The translations under genes were made by a program, and so were the position numbers. The notes beneath the pieces were generated by a model. That model saw nothing but the letters and a program-made list of their open reading frames with translations, was not told the DNA's origin and did no database searches. From contig NZ_SGXT01000013.1 of the NCBI RefSeq assembly GCF_004216855.1, forward strand, positions 310,001-374,000: a stretch of 64,000 nt of DNA, read 5' to 3'. The stretch comes from Microcella alkaliphila. GTDB lineage: Bacteria > Actinomycetota > Actinomycetes > Actinomycetales > Microbacteriaceae. Position 1 is the stretch's first letter. Every line of letters begins with the position of its first letter. Of this stretch, positions 14,374-21,781 are shown piece by piece.

Positions 14374-14447
14374 CGCGGGGTGGAGCAGTTCGGTAGCTCG
14401 CCGGGCTCATAACCCGGAGGTCGTAGGTTCAAATCCTGCCCCCGCAA
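14374..14447 (+). tRNA. Initiator tRNA-fMet (CAT)
   Basis: The 74-nt gene folds as a cloverleaf with anticodon CAT at 14408-14410 in loop ctcataa. Two initiator hallmarks are present. The acceptor stem has an unpaired C1-A72 (C14374, A14446), and the anticodon stem ccggg/cccgg contains the three consecutive G:C pairs needed for P-site entry. The T arm carries GGTTCAAATCC. The discriminator is A14447 and CCA is not encoded. Confidence 0.97.
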
Positions 14448-14456
14448 CTCGCTGCG

Positions 14457-14495: not shown

Positions 14496-15532
14496 CTACA
14501 GGTTCTCCAGCACGCGCTGGGCGACCGCGCAGGTGTCGAGCCAGCTGGGCAGGTCCCGGCCCGCGGCGGCGGATGCCGCGGCCAGCGACATTCGCGCGGC
14601 ATTGTCCGTGAGGAGCGCGCGGAGGCGTCGGCGACGGCAGCGTCATCGCCGACGGGGACGAGCATCCCTGCGTCTGCCGGCACCGTCTCAGGAACTGCGC
14701 CGGTCGCGCACGACACGATCGGCAGGCCCCACGCGAGGGCTTCGTCGAAGACGAGCCCGTATCCCTCGTAGCGGGTCGCGAGCGCGAAGATGCTCGCTCG
14801 GGCATACAGCGCGTCCCGCTCGGCATCCGGCAGTCGGCCAGCGAGCGTCACGCGGCTCCCGAGGCCGAGTTCGGCGTGCAGGCGGGCAAGCTCAGCGACG
14901 TATGGCGGGTCGTACGGGGTGCCGACGATGACCGCCTGCCAGTCGAGGTCGGTGAGGCGCGCGAGCGCGCGAAAAAGCACATCGTGCCCCTTCCGCGGGT
15001 GCTGGATGCCCACGGACAGGATCAGGGGCGGCGCACTCGGCGGTGCGGGCAGGCTCGGCCGGTCGGTGCCGGGGCGCGCGATCGTGATCACCGTCGGGTC
15101 GACGCCGTACTCGGCCGTGAGGATGCGCCCCGTGTGGGAGCTCGGCACGATCACGGCGCGGGCGAGCGCGAGGTTGTCACGCTCGGTGCGGAACAGGTGC
15201 CCGCGGCGCGCATCGTCGAGCCCCTCCTCGTGCGCGAGCGGGTGGTGGATCATCGCGACGATCGGGGCGCGCAGCTCGGCCACGAGCTGTGTGGGCAGGG
15301 AGCCGAAGACGAGACCGTCGACGATGAGCGGCACGTCGGCGCCGATCGCCGCCATCGCCGCAGTCGCGTCGGCTGCGTCGACCGAGGTGGGGTCGGGAAA
15401 CGAGTCGCCCACGCGCAGGTAGGCGACGTCGGTGCCGAGCTCCCGCAAGCCCTCGAGTAGCCGCTTCTCGTACAGGTACCCGCCCGTGACGGTGGTGAGT
15501 TCGCCCGGGATCGCGAAAGCGGCGCGCCTCAC
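14496..15532 (-). pseudogene. GT4-family glycosyltransferase interrupted by a -1 frameshift near its 3' end
   Basis: The main frame from GTG 15532 encodes a GT-B retaining glycosyltransferase: ELTTVTGGYLYEKRLLEGL at the N-terminus, LSVGIQHPRKGHDVLFRAL for the donor domain, and RYEGYGLVFDEALAWGLPIV, the EX7E region. After DDAAVADA the frame becomes meaningless. From about 14627 a different frame continues naturally as LRALLTDNAARMSLAAASAA and ends RVLENL at a TAG at 14496-14498. A missing base around 14622-14627 explains this. Either it is a sequencing error or the gene makes a protein with an altered last 45 residues. Its GTG overlaps the permease stop (GTGA), so it belongs to that operon. 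Confidence 0.8.
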
Positions 15533-17127
15533 GAGGCTTGCTCCGGGGCGTAGCGGGCGAGCATCCGGGTCTCGATCGCGCCGACGGCAGCGTAGCCGAG
15601 GGCGGCGACGGCCGTCACCAACACCACGGCGCCGGCGAGGGCGTCGTAATTCGACAGGGAGGCGCTTCTGGCCATGAGGGCTCCGATCCCGGTTCCGGTG
15701 GCGAGCCACTCGACGACGGTGACCGCGAGCACGGCGGCGGGCACGCTCATGCGGGCGGCGGCGAAGAACGCCGGCAGCATCGCCGGGATGCGCGCGCGCA
15801 CGACAACGCGCCACGGTGCGGTCGCGTAGACGGCCATGACATCGAGCACCTGACCCGGCGCCTGGCGCAGGCCGTGCAGGCAAGCGACGAGGGTCGGGAA
15901 AAACACCATGACCGCGATCAACGTGATCGCGCCAAGAGACCCGCGACCGAGCAGCAGCACGATCAGCGGCGCCGAGGTCACGATCGGCACCGAACGCAGC
16001 GCCACGGCGACCGGCATGATCGCGCCGCTCGCTCCGGGCGCGAGCACGATCAGCACGGCGAGCAGCACGCCGGCGGCGAGACCCGCGATATACCCCGGCA
16101 CGACGTACACGGCGGTGTCGCAGAGCGCCGCGAACAGCGCGTCACGCGTGAGCCCACCGTCGCGCGTGCCCGCAAAGATTCCGACGACGTCGAGCGGAGT
16201 GCGCGCAACGAACGGCGTGATGCCGAGCAGGATGATGCCGCCCCACCACAGCACGATCGTGGCGACGACCGCCGAGGCGGTGCTCGCGAGAGTGCGGCGC
16301 ACGCGGCCCGGTCCCGCGGCGATGCGGGGCGCCGCGAGGATCGTCGGCGGCTGCCCACCCGTCGCCGCCCGCCCGATCATGCCGACGATGGCGTAGGCGA
16401 GCATCGACACGGCGGCGGCGATCGTCGCGAGCGCCCACGTGAGGTCGACGTCGAGATCGCGGGACGCGCGGATGGTCAAGACGCCGAGCCCCCGCTCCGC
16501 CCCCGTGAACTCGCCCACCATGGCCCCGAGAAACGCTGCGGGCGCGGCGATCTGCAGGCCCGCAGCGAGGTAGGGCACCGACGCTCGTGCTCGCACGACG
16601 ACGAGGGCCGTGACCGCCCCGCGCCCGGCGACCCTCACGAGATCGAGCCACGTGTCGGGCACGGCCCGCAGACCCACCAGCAGTGGGATGAGCGTCGTGT
16701 AGTACACGGCGAGCGCGGCGAGCGCGATCTGCGGCCCGTCGCCCGGCCCGAGCAGCACGCGCAACAGGGGAGCGGTCGCCACGAGCGGCAGACACACCAC
16801 GATCAGGGCAAGCCCCGTCACCGTGCGCTGGCTGCGTGGCCAGGCGGCGGCGAGTCCCGCGAGCGCCACGGCCGCGAGGTTGCCGATGACGAAGCCGGCC
16901 AGCGCGGTCGAGCCCGTCGCCGCGAGAGCCCGACCGAGCAGCGGCCCGTTATCGACGATGGCGACGACGACGGCGGTCGGCGCGGCCAGCACGAACGCGC
17001 CCTCGAGGCTGCGCGCGAGAACCTCCCAGGCGACGAGCGCGACCACAACACCGGCAACCCCGACGGCGGCGTCGCGGCGGGCGGGCGCAGCCAGCGGGCG
17101 GATGCTCGCGGTCACCGCCACGATCAT
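15529..17127 (-). CDS. ABC transporter permease with two fused inner-membrane domains (SsuC/ThiX-type)
   Basis: The 532-residue protein contains two complete BPD-type permease halves in one chain. The first spans about 15-260 with the coupling-loop-like region AVPDTWLDLVRVAGRGAVTA. The second spans about 285-530 with GLRQAPGQVLDVMAVYATAP before WRVVVRARIPAMLPA. SsuC, TauC and ThiX-type permeases are normally single 250-280 residue subunits that dimerise, so the fusion is unusual for this importer class. Its ATG 17127 overlaps the ATPase stop as ATGA. It presumably works with the ATPase and Tat-exported binding protein encoded just upstream in the transcript. Confidence 0.85.
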   Translation of the reverse strand: MIVAVTASIRPLAAPARRDAAVGVAGVVVALVAWEVLARSLEGAFVLAAPTAVVVAIVDNGPLLGRALAATGSTALAGFVIGNLAAVALAGLAAAWPRSQRTVTGLALIVVCLPLVATAPLLRVLLGPGDGPQIALAALAVYYTTLIPLLVGLRAVPDTWLDLVRVAGRGAVTALVVVRARASVPYLAAGLQIAAPAAFLGAMVGEFTGAERGLGVLTIRASRDLDVDLTWALATIAAAVSMLAYAIVGMIGRAATGGQPPTILAAPRIAAGPGRVRRTLASTASAVVATIVLWWGGIILLGITPFVARTPLDVVGIFAGTRDGGLTRDALFAALCDTAVYVVPGYIAGLAAGVLLAVLIVLAPGASGAIMPVAVALRSVPIVTSAPLIVLLLGRGSLGAITLIAVMVFFPTLVACLHGLRQAPGQVLDVMAVYATAPWRVVVRARIPAMLPAFFAAARMSVPAAVLAVTVVEWLATGTGIGALMARSASLSNYDALAGAVVLVTAVAALGYAAVGAIETRMLARYAPEQAS

Positions 17128-17915
17128 CCGCCCGTCTGCGCGGCGTCGCCTCCGGCGTGCCCGCGTTCGAGCGCCTCGACGACGGCGCGCTCGAGCCTGT
17201 CGGCTGCCGGGTCGGAGTCGCGGCGCGGCCGCGGCAGCTTGATGGGGATATCGGCCAGCACGCGCGCGGGCCGCGGCGACAGTACGATCACGCGGTCGGC
17301 GAGTCGCACCGCCTCGGCCACGGAGTGGGTGACGAGCAGGGTGGTGGTGCCCCCGCCCTCCCACAGGGCGGGCAGCTCGCGGGCGAGCTGCTGGCGCGTC
17401 AGCTCGTCGACGGCGCCGAACGGCTCGTCGAGCAGCAGCAGGCGGGGGTCGGTGGCGAGGGCGCGGGCGATGGCGGCCCGTTGCCGCATGCCGCCCGACA
17501 GGGCCGCGGGCTTCGTTGCGGCGAAGCCGGTGAGCCCGACGAGGTCGATCAGTTCGGCGACGCGCTCGTCATCGCGATCGAGGCGGGCAAGTTCGCGGGC
17601 GAGCGCAATGTTTGCGGCGACGCTTCGCCACGGCAGCAGCGACGGGTCTTGAAACGCGACGGCGAGCTCGCCGCGGCGTTGCACAATCGTCGGCGGCTCA
17701 CCGTCAACGAGCACCTCGCCGGCGGTCGCCGACTCGAGCCCCGCGATCATGCGCAGCAGCGTCGACTTGCCGCAGCCCGATGGCCCGACGAGGACCGTGG
17801 TGCGCCCGGGGTCGAGGGTGAGCGTGATCGGGGCGACGGCCTCCGTGCCATCCGGGTAGACCTTCGTGGCGGCGTCGACCGTAACGGTGACGCCGGCGCG
17901 GCGGTCAGGCGCCAT
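17124..17915 (-). CDS. ABC transporter ATP-binding protein (SsuB/TauB/ThiZ-like)
   Basis: The 263-residue ATPase has Walker A VGPSGCGKSTLLRMIAGL, Q-loop VAFQDPSLLPW, signature LSGGMRQRAAIARAL, Walker B RLLLLDEPFGAVDE and H-loop LLVTHSVAEA. FQDPSLLPWR and DEPFGAVDELTR are typical of the nitrate/sulfonate/taurine/pyrimidine importer group. The start overlaps the binding-protein stop by 11 bp and the stop overlaps the permease start. It energises the fused permease encoded next. Substrate cannot be read from the ATPase. Confidence 0.93.
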   Translation of the reverse strand: MAPDRRAGVTVTVDAATKVYPDGTEAVAPITLTLDPGRTTVLVGPSGCGKSTLLRMIAGLESATAGEVLVDGEPPTIVQRRGELAVAFQDPSLLPWRSVAANIALARELARLDRDDERVAELIDLVGLTGFAATKPAALSGGMRQRAAIARALATDPRLLLLDEPFGAVDELTRQQLARELPALWEGGGTTTLLVTHSVAEAVRLADRVIVLSPRPARVLADIPIKLPRPRRDSDPAADRLERAVVEALERGHAGGDAAQTGG

Positions 17916-18924
17916 GCACCTGTTCCAGAATCGAGCTGTCCCACAGGTCAGGCGTCACGCTCTGGCCGAGCAGGGCGAGCGTCTCGATGTTCTGCGCGAC
18001 TGTCTCCTCGTTCCAGAACCCGAAGCCCAGTTCGTCGGTGAGCTCGGAGAACATGAGCGGCACCTGGCGGGCCGCCTGCAGCTGCTGAGTTTCGAGATCG
18101 AGCCCGGCGTCGGGGTACATCTCGACGCTCAGGGCAGCGGCCGCGTCGGTGTCGAGCCGGTATTCTTCCCAGCCGCGCACTTCGCCGGCCATGAGGGCGA
18201 CCACGTCGTCGCGGCGGTTCGCGAGGCTGTCGTCGGTGGCGATGTAGGTCTGCGAGTGCAGGGTGTAGCCGTAGTCAGCCATCAGCATGGTGATCGATTC
18301 GACGCCCTGGATCTCCATCGCGACCGGCAGGTCGGTCTCCCAGCACAGCAGGCAGTCGACCTCGCCGGAGGTGAGCGGCTGCGCCGCGTACTGAGTGGGA
18401 ACGATCTCGATGGCGGTGATGTCGACGCCGTTGAGCGTGCAGAGCGTTTCGAGCGTCGGCGTGTTCGCGAGCGCCATGCCGATGCGCTTGCCTTCCAGAT
18501 CGCCGGGCTCGTTGACGGGGTTATCGGGCAGTGACGCGATCACAAAGGGGTTGTTCTGCATCGCGACACCAATGATCTTGAAGGGTGCGCCCTCGGCGAC
18601 AGCGGCGGCGGTGAAGTCGGCAGCCGAGACCCCCACAAGGGCCTGACCCGAGACGACCGGCGGTTCGACGGGGGCGTTGGGCCCGCCCTGAAGGAGACTG
18701 ACGTTCAGCCCCGCGTCGCTCCAGTAGCCGCGGTCGAGAGCGATGTAGCTGCCGGCGAACTGTGCCGAGTGCAGCCATGAGAGTTGCAGTGCGACGTCGG
18801 TGCCGTTCCTCGGCGGATTGCGGAACGCCGACACTCCAGCGAAGGTGGCGGCGCCGATCCCTGCGGCACCCAGCACCCCCGCTCCGATCAGAGTTCGGCG
18901 ACTGAGGGTTCGGCGTTCTGCCAT
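17905..18924 (-). CDS. Tat-exported NMT1/THI5-like ABC substrate-binding protein
   Basis: This 339-residue periplasmic-binding-protein-like component has the N-terminus MAERRTLSRRTLIGAGVLGA, a twin-arginine signal (SRRTLIG), followed by a hydrophobic stretch to about residue 33. The mature part reads LQLSWLHSAQFAGSYIALDR then GYWSDAGLNVSLL, close to the THI5/NMT1 signature (AQFAGxYxAxDxGxYxxxGLxV) of pyrimidine, riboflavin and related binders. It lacks a lipobox Cys. ATG 18924 has GAAGGA upstream; the in-frame ATG at 19074 would run into the next gene. Ligand candidates include hydroxymethylpyrimidine or another small heterocycle, but the neighbours are lipid- and sugar-related, so this is open. 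Confidence 0.85.
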   Translation of the reverse strand: MAERRTLSRRTLIGAGVLGAAGIGAATFAGVSAFRNPPRNGTDVALQLSWLHSAQFAGSYIALDRGYWSDAGLNVSLLQGGPNAPVEPPVVSGQALVGVSAADFTAAAVAEGAPFKIIGVAMQNNPFVIASLPDNPVNEPGDLEGKRIGMALANTPTLETLCTLNGVDITAIEIVPTQYAAQPLTSGEVDCLLCWETDLPVAMEIQGVESITMLMADYGYTLHSQTYIATDDSLANRRDDVVALMAGEVRGWEEYRLDTDAAAALSVEMYPDAGLDLETQQLQAARQVPLMFSELTDELGFGFWNEETVAQNIETLALLGQSVTPDLWDSSILEQVHGA

Positions 18925-18991
18925 GGCTGTGTCCTTCACGCGGAGCCGGGTGCCGACGCATCCATCGCGCCGTGCCTCCCTTTCGACACTG

Positions 18992-19951
18992 TCACGTTCT
19001 GTGCATCCGCGCCGCTCGACGCCCCCATAACGGCACGATTCCGGGCATCGTCGCGGCAAGTGCCACGAGTCCAAACAGGATGCTCGCAGCCAACGCCCCG
19101 GAGGCGCTCACCCCGGCAAGAGGGAGCAACGCGACCGCGGCCCCCTCGCGCACACCCCACCCGCCGACCGTGATCGGGATCAGCATGGCGAGCAGCACGA
19201 CGGGCACGACGGCAACGATGCCGCCGAGGCTCAGCGGCGCGCCGACGGCGGCTGCAGCGCTCGCGAACGCCACCAGGATGCAGAGAGTCGTTCCGAGGCT
19301 CAGCCCCGCGACGCTCGCGAGAGCCCCGCGATCCACCACGGCCGAGCGGATCGCCGCCGTGAGGTCCTGCGCCCGCGCACCGAGCCGTCCGGGGAGCAGG
19401 GTCGCGCCCGCGATGAGGGCGGGCAGACCGAGCGCTCCGGCAATCAGCACCACGAGTAACGGCACGGCCGCGCTCGGCCAGTCCACACCCCCGGGCAGGA
19501 CGATCGTGGAGGCAACGGCGATGCCCATCACGATGAGCAGCGCGTACTGCCCGGCGAGGCGCTCGAGTACGACGGCGAGGCCGGCCGCGCCCAGACCTGC
19601 GGGTCGCCGCGAGCGCACCGCGCGCCCCGCGTCGCCGACTACCCCGCCCGGAACAACGGCGTTCACGAGCTGCGATAGGTAGTACTCACCGACGGCCTCC
19701 TGCACGGGGATGGCGATTCCCAGCCCGCGGGCGACCCGCCGCCAGCGCAGCGCCGCAAGCAGGGTGTGGGCGGTGAGGGCCGCCGCGCACAGCGCGATGA
19801 AGTCCCAGCGCGCCGAGCGCAAAAGGCGCCCGGTCTCCGGCCCGTCGACGAGACGCCACAGGGCGACCACCAGCGCGACGGCGACGAGTGCTTGCAGCGC
19901 GACCACGAGCATCCGGCGTCGCCTGCTCGCGGGCGCAGTGGCGTCGCTCAC
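18992..19951 (-). CDS. YbhN/LPG-synthase-TM-like (UPF0104) integral membrane protein
   Basis: The 319-residue protein with about eight hydrophobic helices resembles the lysylphosphatidylglycerol synthase transmembrane/flippase-like family (YbhN, AglD). Visible family features include LRWRRVARGLGIAIPVQEAV, then EYYLSQLVNAVVPGGVVGDAGRA, and GGWGVREGAAVALL near the C-terminus. Such proteins are thought to flip lipids or lipid-linked sugars. Its GTG 19951 overlaps the TGA of the CDP-alcohol phosphatidyltransferase gene (GTGA), so the two are coupled. The ABC binding-protein gene follows after 67 bp. Confidence 0.8.
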   Translation of the reverse strand: MSDATAPASRRRRMLVVALQALVAVALVVALWRLVDGPETGRLLRSARWDFIALCAAALTAHTLLAALRWRRVARGLGIAIPVQEAVGEYYLSQLVNAVVPGGVVGDAGRAVRSRRPAGLGAAGLAVVLERLAGQYALLIVMGIAVASTIVLPGGVDWPSAAVPLLVVLIAGALGLPALIAGATLLPGRLGARAQDLTAAIRSAVVDRGALASVAGLSLGTTLCILVAFASAAAAVGAPLSLGGIVAVVPVVLLAMLIPITVGGWGVREGAAVALLPLAGVSASGALAASILFGLVALAATMPGIVPLWGRRAARMHRT

Positions 19952-20721
19952 GCCGTCCGAGCGCGGCGCAGAGCGACGATGTCGACCGCAAACGACCAGA
20001 CGAGGGCGGCCGCGACCCCGATAACGATGCTCAGGGCCGCCCAGACCGGCAGCCAGGGCAGCTGCAGCGCGATCAGGGCGATGAGTTGCACCACGCAGAT
20101 CACTTTGCGGCTGTAGCGGTCGGCGAGCGGGCCGTTCAGCCACGGCGCGATCAGCGCGGCCCCGCCGAAGAGGTAGCGCGGAAGCCCGAGCACGAGCGCC
20201 ACCGGCCCCGCCGGCCCGAGAGCGGCGAGCGCGGCCAGCGCCAGGGCGAAGACCGAATCGACCTCCATGTCGTACGCGGCCCCGAATCGCGACTCGAGCC
20301 GCTGTCGGCGGGCCAGCTTGCCATCCACCCCGTCGAGGCTCAGCGCGAAGATCGCGAGCCCGATGACGGCGGCTGCTGACGGTGCCCCGGCAACGAGCAG
20401 GCCCACAAGGATCGACACGAGCCCCCACCGGATGCTCGTGACCGCGCTCGCGGCGCCCAATCGCGCGTGCGGGTGGTGCCGCGTCAGGAAGGCGGCGGCG
20501 AAGCCGAAACCCGCGACGGCGCTCACCGCCGTCGCCACGGTCGGAGCCGTCGCGAACCCCGACAGTGCCGCCGTCGTGGTCGCGGCGCCGAGCGAGATGA
20601 GCGTCGCCCCACCGAGGAACATGCCGAGTGCGCGCACGCCCACGCCGACCTGAGCCGCGCCGCGCGCTGCGTCGGCAGGGGCGAGATTTGCGGTGGTCAC
20701 GGCGGCACGCCAGCACCGCAT
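19948..20721 (-). CDS. CDP-alcohol phosphatidyltransferase family membrane enzyme
   Basis: The 257-residue polytopic protein contains the complete CDP-AP signature: DGVDGKLARRQRLESRFG then AAYDMEVD, matching D-x2-DG-x2-AR-x8-G-x3-D-x3-D with all four Asp. Such enzymes move a phosphate-linked group from a CDP-alcohol to an acceptor alcohol in phospholipid synthesis. Which alcohol is used cannot be told. ATG 20721 or GTG 20700 may be the start. The gene leads a minus-strand run with the YbhN-like gene and the ABC importer, an odd combination for housekeeping phospholipid synthesis. The 175-bp gap upstream holds inverted AACATTC/GAATGTT (20743-20749, 20776-20782). Confidence 0.82.
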   Translation of the reverse strand: MRCWRAAVTTANLAPADAARGAAQVGVGVRALGMFLGGATLISLGAATTTAALSGFATAPTVATAVSAVAGFGFAAAFLTRHHPHARLGAASAVTSIRWGLVSILVGLLVAGAPSAAAVIGLAIFALSLDGVDGKLARRQRLESRFGAAYDMEVDSVFALALAALAALGPAGPVALVLGLPRYLFGGAALIAPWLNGPLADRYSRKVICVVQLIALIALQLPWLPVWAALSIVIGVAAALVWSFAVDIVALRRARTA

Positions 20722-20896: not shown

Positions 20897-21781
20897 TCAG
20901 CGGGCTGGCGGTTGCGCCCCGCGCCACTGCACGGCCGCGGCGCCCGAGCGCACGCCGGCCGTCACGGCGTCGGCGAGCGCGGCGCCGTCGGCCAGTTCTG
21001 CGCACACGGCGCCCACGAACGCGTCGCCCGCCCCCGTCGTGTCGACCACCTCGACGCGTGGCGCGGCGACGTGGCCGCTCGCCTCTGCCTCACACCAGAC
21101 GGCGCCGTCTCCACCGAGGGTGATGATGACGCTGCGGCAGCGTGTGACGAGCGAGCGCGCGGCGGCCAGTGCCCCCTCCACGTCAGCGAAGGATGCTGCA
21201 CCGACGGCCCGCGCTTCGCTTTCGTTGACGACGAGTGGGTCGCAGAGGCCGAGTAGTTCGTCCGGGATGTCGCGCGCGGGCGACAGGTTCAGCACCACCC
21301 GGCCGCCGGCTCCGACAACCGCGAGGGCGGCGGCCTGGACGACGGTGAGCGGCACCTCGAGTTGGCTGAGCAGCACCGTTCCGGGGCCGGCGAGATCGGT
21401 AATCGTGGCGACGACAGCATCCGCGTCGAGTCGGCCGTTCGCGCCGGGGGCGACCACGATCGTGTTCTCGCCGTCGCGCGACACGGTGATGAGGGCGACC
21501 CCGGTAGGGGCGTCGGTGAGCCGGGCGACGCTCGACACATCGACGCCGCCGCTGCCGAGCGCGTCGAGCATGGCGCGGCCCCCCGCATCGTCTCCGACGG
21601 CGCCGAGGAAGACGGGCATCGCACCGGCGCGGGCCGCGGCGAGAGCCTGGTTGGCTCCCTTGCCTCCGGTCGCGACTACGACGTCGCCGCCGAGCAGGGT
21701 CTCACCCGGCTGGGGATGGCGGTCAACGACGACCGTGTAGTCGGTGTTCGCCGAACCGAGAACGATGAGGGAGGCGCTCAT
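20897..21781 (-). CDS. rbsK: Ribokinase, PfkB family sugar kinase
   Basis: The 294-residue kinase has the N-terminal signature GGKGANQALAAARAG (39-53) and the C-terminal DTTGAGDAFVGA (247-258) with the catalytic Asp253, placing it close to ribokinase, which makes ribose 5-phosphate. LGSANTDYTVVVDRHPQPGE is the usual ribokinase opening. No ribose transporter or LacI regulator is adjacent, so the substrate within the PfkB family is inferred from the motif pattern. It is divergent from the nitrilase-type gene, with 62 bp between starts. Confidence 0.87.
   Translation of the reverse strand: MSASLIVLGSANTDYTVVVDRHPQPGETLLGGDVVVATGGKGANQALAAARAGAMPVFLGAVGDDAGGRAMLDALGSGGVDVSSVARLTDAPTGVALITVSRDGENTIVVAPGANGRLDADAVVATITDLAGPGTVLLSQLEVPLTVVQAAALAVVGAGGRVVLNLSPARDIPDELLGLCDPLVVNESEARAVGAASFADVEGALAAARSLVTRCRSVIITLGGDGAVWCEAEASGHVAAPRVEVVDTTGAGDAFVGAVCAELADGAALADAVTAGVRSGAAAVQWRGAQPPAR

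Follow-up and report, generated by a model that had tools for sequence, protein, structure and literature searches.

We found that a six-gene operon in Microcella alkaliphila joins an NMT1/THI5-type ATP-binding cassette (ABC) importer to genes for a CDP-alcohol phosphotransferase (CDPAP), a YbhN-type membrane protein, and a glycosyltransferase (GT). We also found that, among genomes bearing this kind of cluster, the importer alternates with a synthesis module that includes a PTPS-like protein. The operon occupies positions 14496-20721 of the window, by which we mean the whole 64,000-nucleotide stretch of contig NZ_SGXT01000013.1 that was analyzed. Our favored interpretation, which we hold with about even confidence, is that this horizontally spread operon imports a GTP-derived heterocycle, that the GT glycosylates it, and that the CDPAP and the YbhN-type protein use it to build an envelope glycoside or glycolipid. 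The importer would then be a salvage version of the synthesis module.

All six genes were called on the minus strand, head to tail, within a 2.69-Mb Microcella genome. They encode the CDPAP (19948..20721; 257 amino acids from its ATG; PF01066, CDP-OH_P_transf, 44.3 bits), the YbhN-type (LPG_synthase_TM) membrane protein, flippase-like by its family name (18992..19951; PF03706, 109.5 bits against a gathering score of 33.4), an NMT1/THI5-type substrate-binding protein (SBP; 17905..18924; PF09084, NMT1, 133.6 bits), an ABC transporter ATPase (17124..17915; PF00005, ABC_tran, 125.1 bits), a fused permease of 532 amino acids with two BPD_transp_1 stretches in a single protein (15529..17127), and a GT4-type GT (14496..15532; PF13692/PF00534, group 1 glycosyltransferase domains). 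Neighboring genes overlap by 4 bases (CDPAP/YbhN), 11 bases (SBP/ATPase), 4 bases (ATPase/permease), and 4 bases (permease/GT). The original prediction had described six tightly linked minus-strand genes of these families. The gene calls and overlaps bear out the linkage, and Pfam agrees with the family names, the fused permease included. In many family relatives the permease is instead two adjacent single-domain genes (e.g., G004, G090, and G087). The predicted GT gene is present, with its group 1 domains, but its reading frame is broken near 14.62 kb. The frame that is open to 14465 crosses a terminator-like inverted repeat, and approximately 40 residues like the C-terminal ends of its relatives are encoded in a different frame, whose stop at 14496 immediately precedes the inverted repeat. 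The break could be either a sequencing error or a recent mutation.

The importer has the parts of an NMT1/THI5-type system: an SBP with the NMT1 domain and fold, an ABC_tran ATPase, and a BPD_transp_1 permease. The N-terminus of the SBP, MAERRTLSRRTLIGAG, is twin-arginine-like, and we take it to be a putative signal for export by the twin-arginine translocation (Tat) pathway. The CDPAP signature DGxxARx8GxxxDxxxD was present in the window copy and in 65/65 cluster CDPAPs. No NCBIfam model reached its cut-off for the CDPAP, the YbhN-type protein, or the SBP, nor did the models shown for the ATPase, permease, and GT. The CDPAP scored 21.6 bits with the PgsA model TIGR00560 (cut-off 109.1), the YbhN-type protein fell under the cut-offs of TIGR00374 and MprF, and scores for taurine/sulfonate systems were also under their cut-offs (SsuA family, 24.3 of 163.5 bits; TauB, 189.7 of 357; SsuC, 54.2 of 347).

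We found that the operon is conserved far outside this genome. The window's own family was represented by 120 genomes, the window's included, and the SBP relatives in the other 119 were at most 43% identical; M. putealis was not among the genomes matched. Scanning a species-genome collection with a YbhN alignment gave 36 loci: M. putealis (L111), two uncultured Micrococcales bins, and 33 from Rhodobacterales or genera of that group. Genes for the CDPAP, YbhN-type protein, SBP, ATPase, fused permease, and GT were in the same order in 10/36 loci (M. putealis and nine Rhodobacterales), and the SBPs of these ten were 70-83% identical to that of the window. After the CDPAP, all nine Rhodobacterales loci encode a protein with a sulfatase fold (PF00884, from a scan of L086). 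The ATPase/permease and permease/GT overlaps were kept in 10/11 loci compared, across another phylum too. Because gene order and overlaps recur in another phylum, the linkage is more than chance. These loci rule out a cluster private to the window genome, and the co-occurrence of the six genes on which the original prediction depended extends well beyond it. No relative was found in viral contigs.

The sequences speak for horizontal spread between phyla, since the SBP identities are high and the core tree places the window and M. putealis among Rhodobacterales rows. A single clade of all 16 actinobacterial rows in the core tree was not rejected (approximately unbiased test, p = 0.056).

The importer is linked to the GT. 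The GT gene directly follows the permease gene in 35/39 importer loci (permeases above 340 bits; L032 belongs to another subfamily and was not counted), which favors our interpretation. The same arrangement is found in L161 and L168, with permeases below 340 bits; in L161 the permease is an uninterrupted frame of 522 amino acids that scores under the threshold. Within 41 importer stretches there was a GT in 37, a CDPAP in 32, a YbhN gene in 31, and a sulfatase-fold gene in 31. Since the 36 loci had been drawn through YbhN, we searched 394 Rhodobacteraceae genomes afresh, scoring 5 to 10 first-look candidates per genome, so that some genes may have been missed. The importer SBP was found in 32 genomes, the PTPS-like gene in 34, and the cluster CDPAP in 53. 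The cluster CDPAP was in 28/32 importer genomes versus 25/362 genomes without the importer (Fisher's exact test, p = 4e-24), which rules out chance co-location of importer and CDPAP.

In sister clusters, synthesis genes stand in the importer's place. A PTPS-like gene was present, and an importer of this subfamily absent, in 15/36 loci. The PTPS-like gene was usually accompanied by genes for GTP cyclohydrolase II, a RibD_C reductase, a methyltransferase, and a BchC-like dehydrogenase, and these clusters retain the CDPAP, YbhN, and GT genes. Among the 15, L103 and L108 also carry a divergent NMT1 importer (SBP 36% and 27% identical, respectively), and L104 also holds a piece of a permease. Like the importer, the PTPS-like gene tracks the CDPAP in the 394 genomes (18/34, p = 6e-9). 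In the window's family, the PTPS family was found in 13/13 other YbhN-bearing genomes; it was not found in the window genome, which is 100% complete by estimate. The synthesis module also occurs apart from this core: in L209 and L210, from two of 16 PTPS-like genomes without the cluster CDPAP, the synthesis genes stand alone.

The PTPS-like protein probably runs a different reaction from that of PTPS or QueD, judging from its motif. Members of the PTPS/QueD family are expected to have a catalytic Cys and an HGH motif. The PTPS-like proteins match the Pfam domain PF01242, and 29/30 have Ala at the Cys and at the second His of HGH; the remaining one is truncated. Examples of the deviant motif are at 10045-10440 of L066 and 4087-4479 of L087. 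Two of the proteins were scanned with the QueD NCBIfam model and reached 27-41 of 89 bits. The best solved relative is SCO6650 of Streptomyces coelicolor (PDB 3d7j, E = 8e-58), which reportedly does not catalyze the PTPS reaction. Near SCO6650 there is presumably a GTP cyclohydrolase II, SCO6655. SCO6650 is thus close kin of the PTPS-like protein in synthesis-type sister clusters; unlike the SCO6650-type cluster, the window has no PTPS-like gene and has the importer in its place. From their families, the genes of the synthesis module seem to make a GTP-derived, pterin-like compound.

We found that importer and synthesis module alternate among cluster-bearing genomes. There was no PTPS-like gene within the 41 importer stretches. 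In a set of 36 genomes (the window genome and those of 35 of the 36 loci, L116 left out; importer SBP threshold at least 630 bits), the SBP was present in 12, the PTPS-like gene in 20, both in one, and neither in five (Fisher's exact test, p = 7e-5). Of the 53 CDPAP-bearing Rhodobacteraceae, 25 had only the importer, 15 only the PTPS-like gene, three both, and 10 neither (p = 3.3e-4). Two of the genomes with both have damaged importer genes: in G216 there is a stop inside the SBP and the permease is in separate frames, and in G492 the ATPase is in two frames, the SBP being whole. A tree of the CDPAP, YbhN-type protein, and GT (63 rows) had 8 changes between importer and synthesis labels. These labels are exclusive by construction, and the pair test was redone with whole-genome states. 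Across 7 independent pairs with contrasting importer states, the PTPS-like gene differed in the opposite direction in 4-6 and in the same direction in 0-1 (sign test, median p = 0.03, range 0.03-0.375). Neighbors in the core tree within Roseicyclus also differ: R. mahoneyensis (L086) has the importer, and R. marinus (L099) carries the synthesis module at another site in its genome (L160). We suggest that the importer replaces synthesis because of the alternation in CDPAP-bearing genomes, the changes in the tree, the pair test, and the lack of the PTPS family in the window genome. Replacement of synthesis by import is a known theme.

The predicted structure of the SBP is compatible with a small heterocyclic ligand. 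The AlphaFold model had a mean pLDDT of 90.7, with residues 1-35 unreliable. Its nearest solved folds were thiamin-bound 4nmy and FAMP-binding 3ix1 (Foldseek E values of 6e-22 and 1e-20, respectively; 18% identity over the structural alignment) and THI5 (PLP), with the PQQ-binding PqqT lower in the list. A pteridine or aminopyrimidine ligand would fit this model.

Based on these results we propose the following scheme. The exported SBP would capture a small nitrogen heterocycle, most likely a GTP-derived aminopyrimidine or pteridine, which the fused permease and ATPase would bring into the cell. The GT would glycosylate the imported heterocycle, the CDPAP would supply a phospho-alcohol link, and the YbhN-type protein may help the product across or within the membrane. 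Relatives would make the compound by way of GTP cyclohydrolase II, the RibD_C reductase, the methyltransferase, the BchC-like dehydrogenase, and the PTPS-like protein. We infer the identity of the ligand, the action of the GT on it, and a membrane or envelope product; the steps after uptake are predicted from family names. The original prediction of a precursor importer that feeds lipid and sugar enzymes fits the conserved co-occurrence. Its lipid product stays putative: the CDPAP and YbhN-type protein point to the envelope.

Several observations weigh against this scheme. A thiamine precursor would fit the SBP model equally well, so the fold leaves the heterocycle a prediction. Over all 394 genomes there was no anticorrelation (three genomes with both modules, approximately 2.8 expected; p = 0.75); we therefore rejected genome-wide avoidance of importer and synthesis module, and the alternation holds only among CDPAP-bearing genomes. 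The cluster CDPAP was absent from 16/34 PTPS-like genomes. Both modules are whole by gene calls in G454, where no methyltransferase was called in the synthesis module, and the metagenome bin G153, from the 36-genome set, also has both. The importers of L154, L163, and L169 stand without a GT, CDPAP, YbhN, or sulfatase-fold gene. The Fisher values given here ignore kinship among genomes and are hence too small, and the pair test does not go below p = 0.03.

Some of these observations would be expected if the alternation were a by-product of a mobile envelope cluster, in which the two modules have separate functions and share just a favored neighborhood. The lack of anticorrelation over the 394 genomes and the three importers without the core are consistent with this, as are the varied layout (importer and core are on opposite strands in L151, L164, and L165) and the patchy presence of the cluster in the genus. 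However, counting modules across whole genomes rather than at the locus alone leaves the alternation in place, and synthesis modules at the separate loci L158, L160, L191, and L206 each come with a GT of this family. We consider such a by-product unlikely, if worth keeping in mind.

The main rival explanation is that the importer salvages thiamine or the thiamine pyrimidine (HMP, FAMP), and that its lipid and sugar neighbors are incidental. The folds nearest to the SBP favor this possibility. It is also favored by G543, the nearest relative, in which the corresponding site (L171, 2000-10700) is filled by ThiC, partial ThiD, ThiS-, ThiG-, and MoeZ/ThiF-like genes, with two thiamine pyrophosphate (TPP) riboswitches facing each other. 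However, no homologue of the G543 ThiC, ThiD, ThiF/MoeZ, ThiG, or ThiS was found in the 41 importer stretches, and the importer tracks the CDPAP and GT instead. No TPP riboswitch was found in 10 importer loci scanned, and no flavin mononucleotide (FMN) riboswitch at the gathering score; this negative result is weak, since none was detected in 31 further NMT1 loci either (mostly stretches of just 4 kb), and there was no positive control. The original prediction had left room for the SBP to belong to an established system for thiamine, riboflavin, or taurine. No family model made such an assignment; by fold, the closest proteins are binders of thiamine or its pyrimidine. ThiY-type systems share with the window importer the NMT1/THI5 fold and the plan of SBP, ATPase, and permease; unlike them, the importer loci examined have no thiamine genes or TPP riboswitch, have GT, CDPAP, and YbhN neighbors, and have a fused permease. 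We think that a role in thiamine salvage is improbable.

The importer might also have no relation to the synthesis module and take up a purine, nucleoside, or similar nutrient that serves as building block or nitrogen source, as suggested by distant relatives with the same fused permease (L076, L077, and L079; SBP 32-37% identical) that adjoin genes for purine nucleoside phosphorylase and/or adenosine deaminase and an amidohydrolase and may form a nucleoside-linked subfamily, but none of those three genes has a homologue in the 41 importer stretches and the GT link is conserved, and we regard this explanation as very doubtful.

We found a third state among CDPAP loci. In a set of 78 such loci, 18 show neither the importer nor the synthesis module in the stretch; the set is not random, as several loci were fetched for lacking both modules, and some contigs are short. 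One family of sugar-type ABC importer was present in 9/18 of these loci versus 0/60 importer or synthesis loci, near the CDPAP, sulfatase-fold, and YbhN genes (L195, L196, L197, L200, L201, L202, L205, L110, and L095); two of the nine, L095 and L205, come from genomes with a module elsewhere. Its binding proteins are of the SBP_bac_1/8 type and 62-71% identical to the L195 copy, and the L195 ATPase passes the UgpC model (UgpC/MalK-like). A GT was present in 1/18 of the loci with neither module versus 56/60 of the importer or synthesis loci. Of the 10 CDPAP-bearing genomes with neither module, 7 have the sugar-type importer (L110, L195, L196, L197, L200, L201, and L202); in the other three, contigs L198 and L199 end too soon and L203 is without it. 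These results fit import of an already glycosylated compound by the sugar-type importer. A sugar or glycerol-phosphate as its substrate is equally open.

In many Rhodobacterales loci (L081, L083, L086, L092, L093, and others) the core borders MdoG/MdoH glucan genes and cytochrome b561, a hint of an envelope glycan. An endonuclease/exonuclease/phosphatase-family gene is also often at the cluster border, in importer and synthesis types alike. No match to MdoG/MdoH, cytochrome b561, or the sulfatase-fold gene was found in the window cluster or in L111.

Two genes outside the system flank the operon in the window. A tRNA-Met gene (14374..14448, plus strand; ARAGORN) is at one edge of the acquired stretch, and a PfkB/ribokinase-like gene (20897..21781, minus strand; PF00294, 199.9 bits), a genus-wide neighbor, is at the other. 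This tRNA also marks the edge in L171 and L172, L182 has it at the matching site, and the left-flank gene, UPF0182, was found in 25/26 genomes of the genus. We read the downstream stretches of 20 other genus genomes, and 13 of these extend to the PfkB gene. One of the 13, G551, has the complete cluster. In G543, whose UPF0182 gene is 98% identical to that of the window, a truncated CDPAP of 118 amino acids lies beside PfkB. The other 11 stretches reaching PfkB had no match to a cluster gene. The operon probably entered before the lineages of the window, G551, and G543 split, and was probably then mostly lost in G543.

Each part of the operon belongs to a known family. The YbhN-type protein matches the flippase domain of YbhN and MprF (PF03706) and is without a synthetase domain. 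Profile matches of the CDPAP to CDP-alcohol phosphatidyltransferases in the PDB (cholinephosphotransferase and phosphatidylserine synthase) had E values of 4e-8 to 3e-5; its score is far below the PgsA cut-off. What appears new is that an NMT1 importer takes the place of a PTPS-like pathway next to CDP-alcohol, glycosyltransferase, and flippase-like genes. We recognized neither this combination nor a paper on the cluster in searches of open-licence literature. The riboflavin transporter RibXY, as described in a published account (PMC4418817), has an NMT1-class SBP and an SsuC-class permease (COG0715 and COG0600). The window importer shares both; unlike RibXY, it has lipid and sugar neighbors, and the scanned importer loci have no FMN riboswitch.

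Taken further, our favored interpretation suggests dedicated uptake of a pterin-like, GTP-derived headgroup of an undescribed envelope glycoside or glycolipid. This headgroup would be supplied by synthesis, by NMT1-type import and glycosylation, or, without the GT, by sugar-type import of a sugar-bearing form. We offer this wider possibility tentatively. A 2026 review (PMC13259868) calls the way pterins cross bacterial membranes "currently unknown", and the operon described here offers a concrete candidate for the uptake of a pterin-like compound. It connects a putative GTP-derived heterocycle with flippase-like, glycosyl-transfer, and CDP-alcohol genes. It also provides a way into the function of the SCO6650-type cluster and predicts an exchanged metabolite. 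If the wider possibility is true, the three routes of supply would imply aquatic communities in which some bacteria produce a metabolite that others take up.

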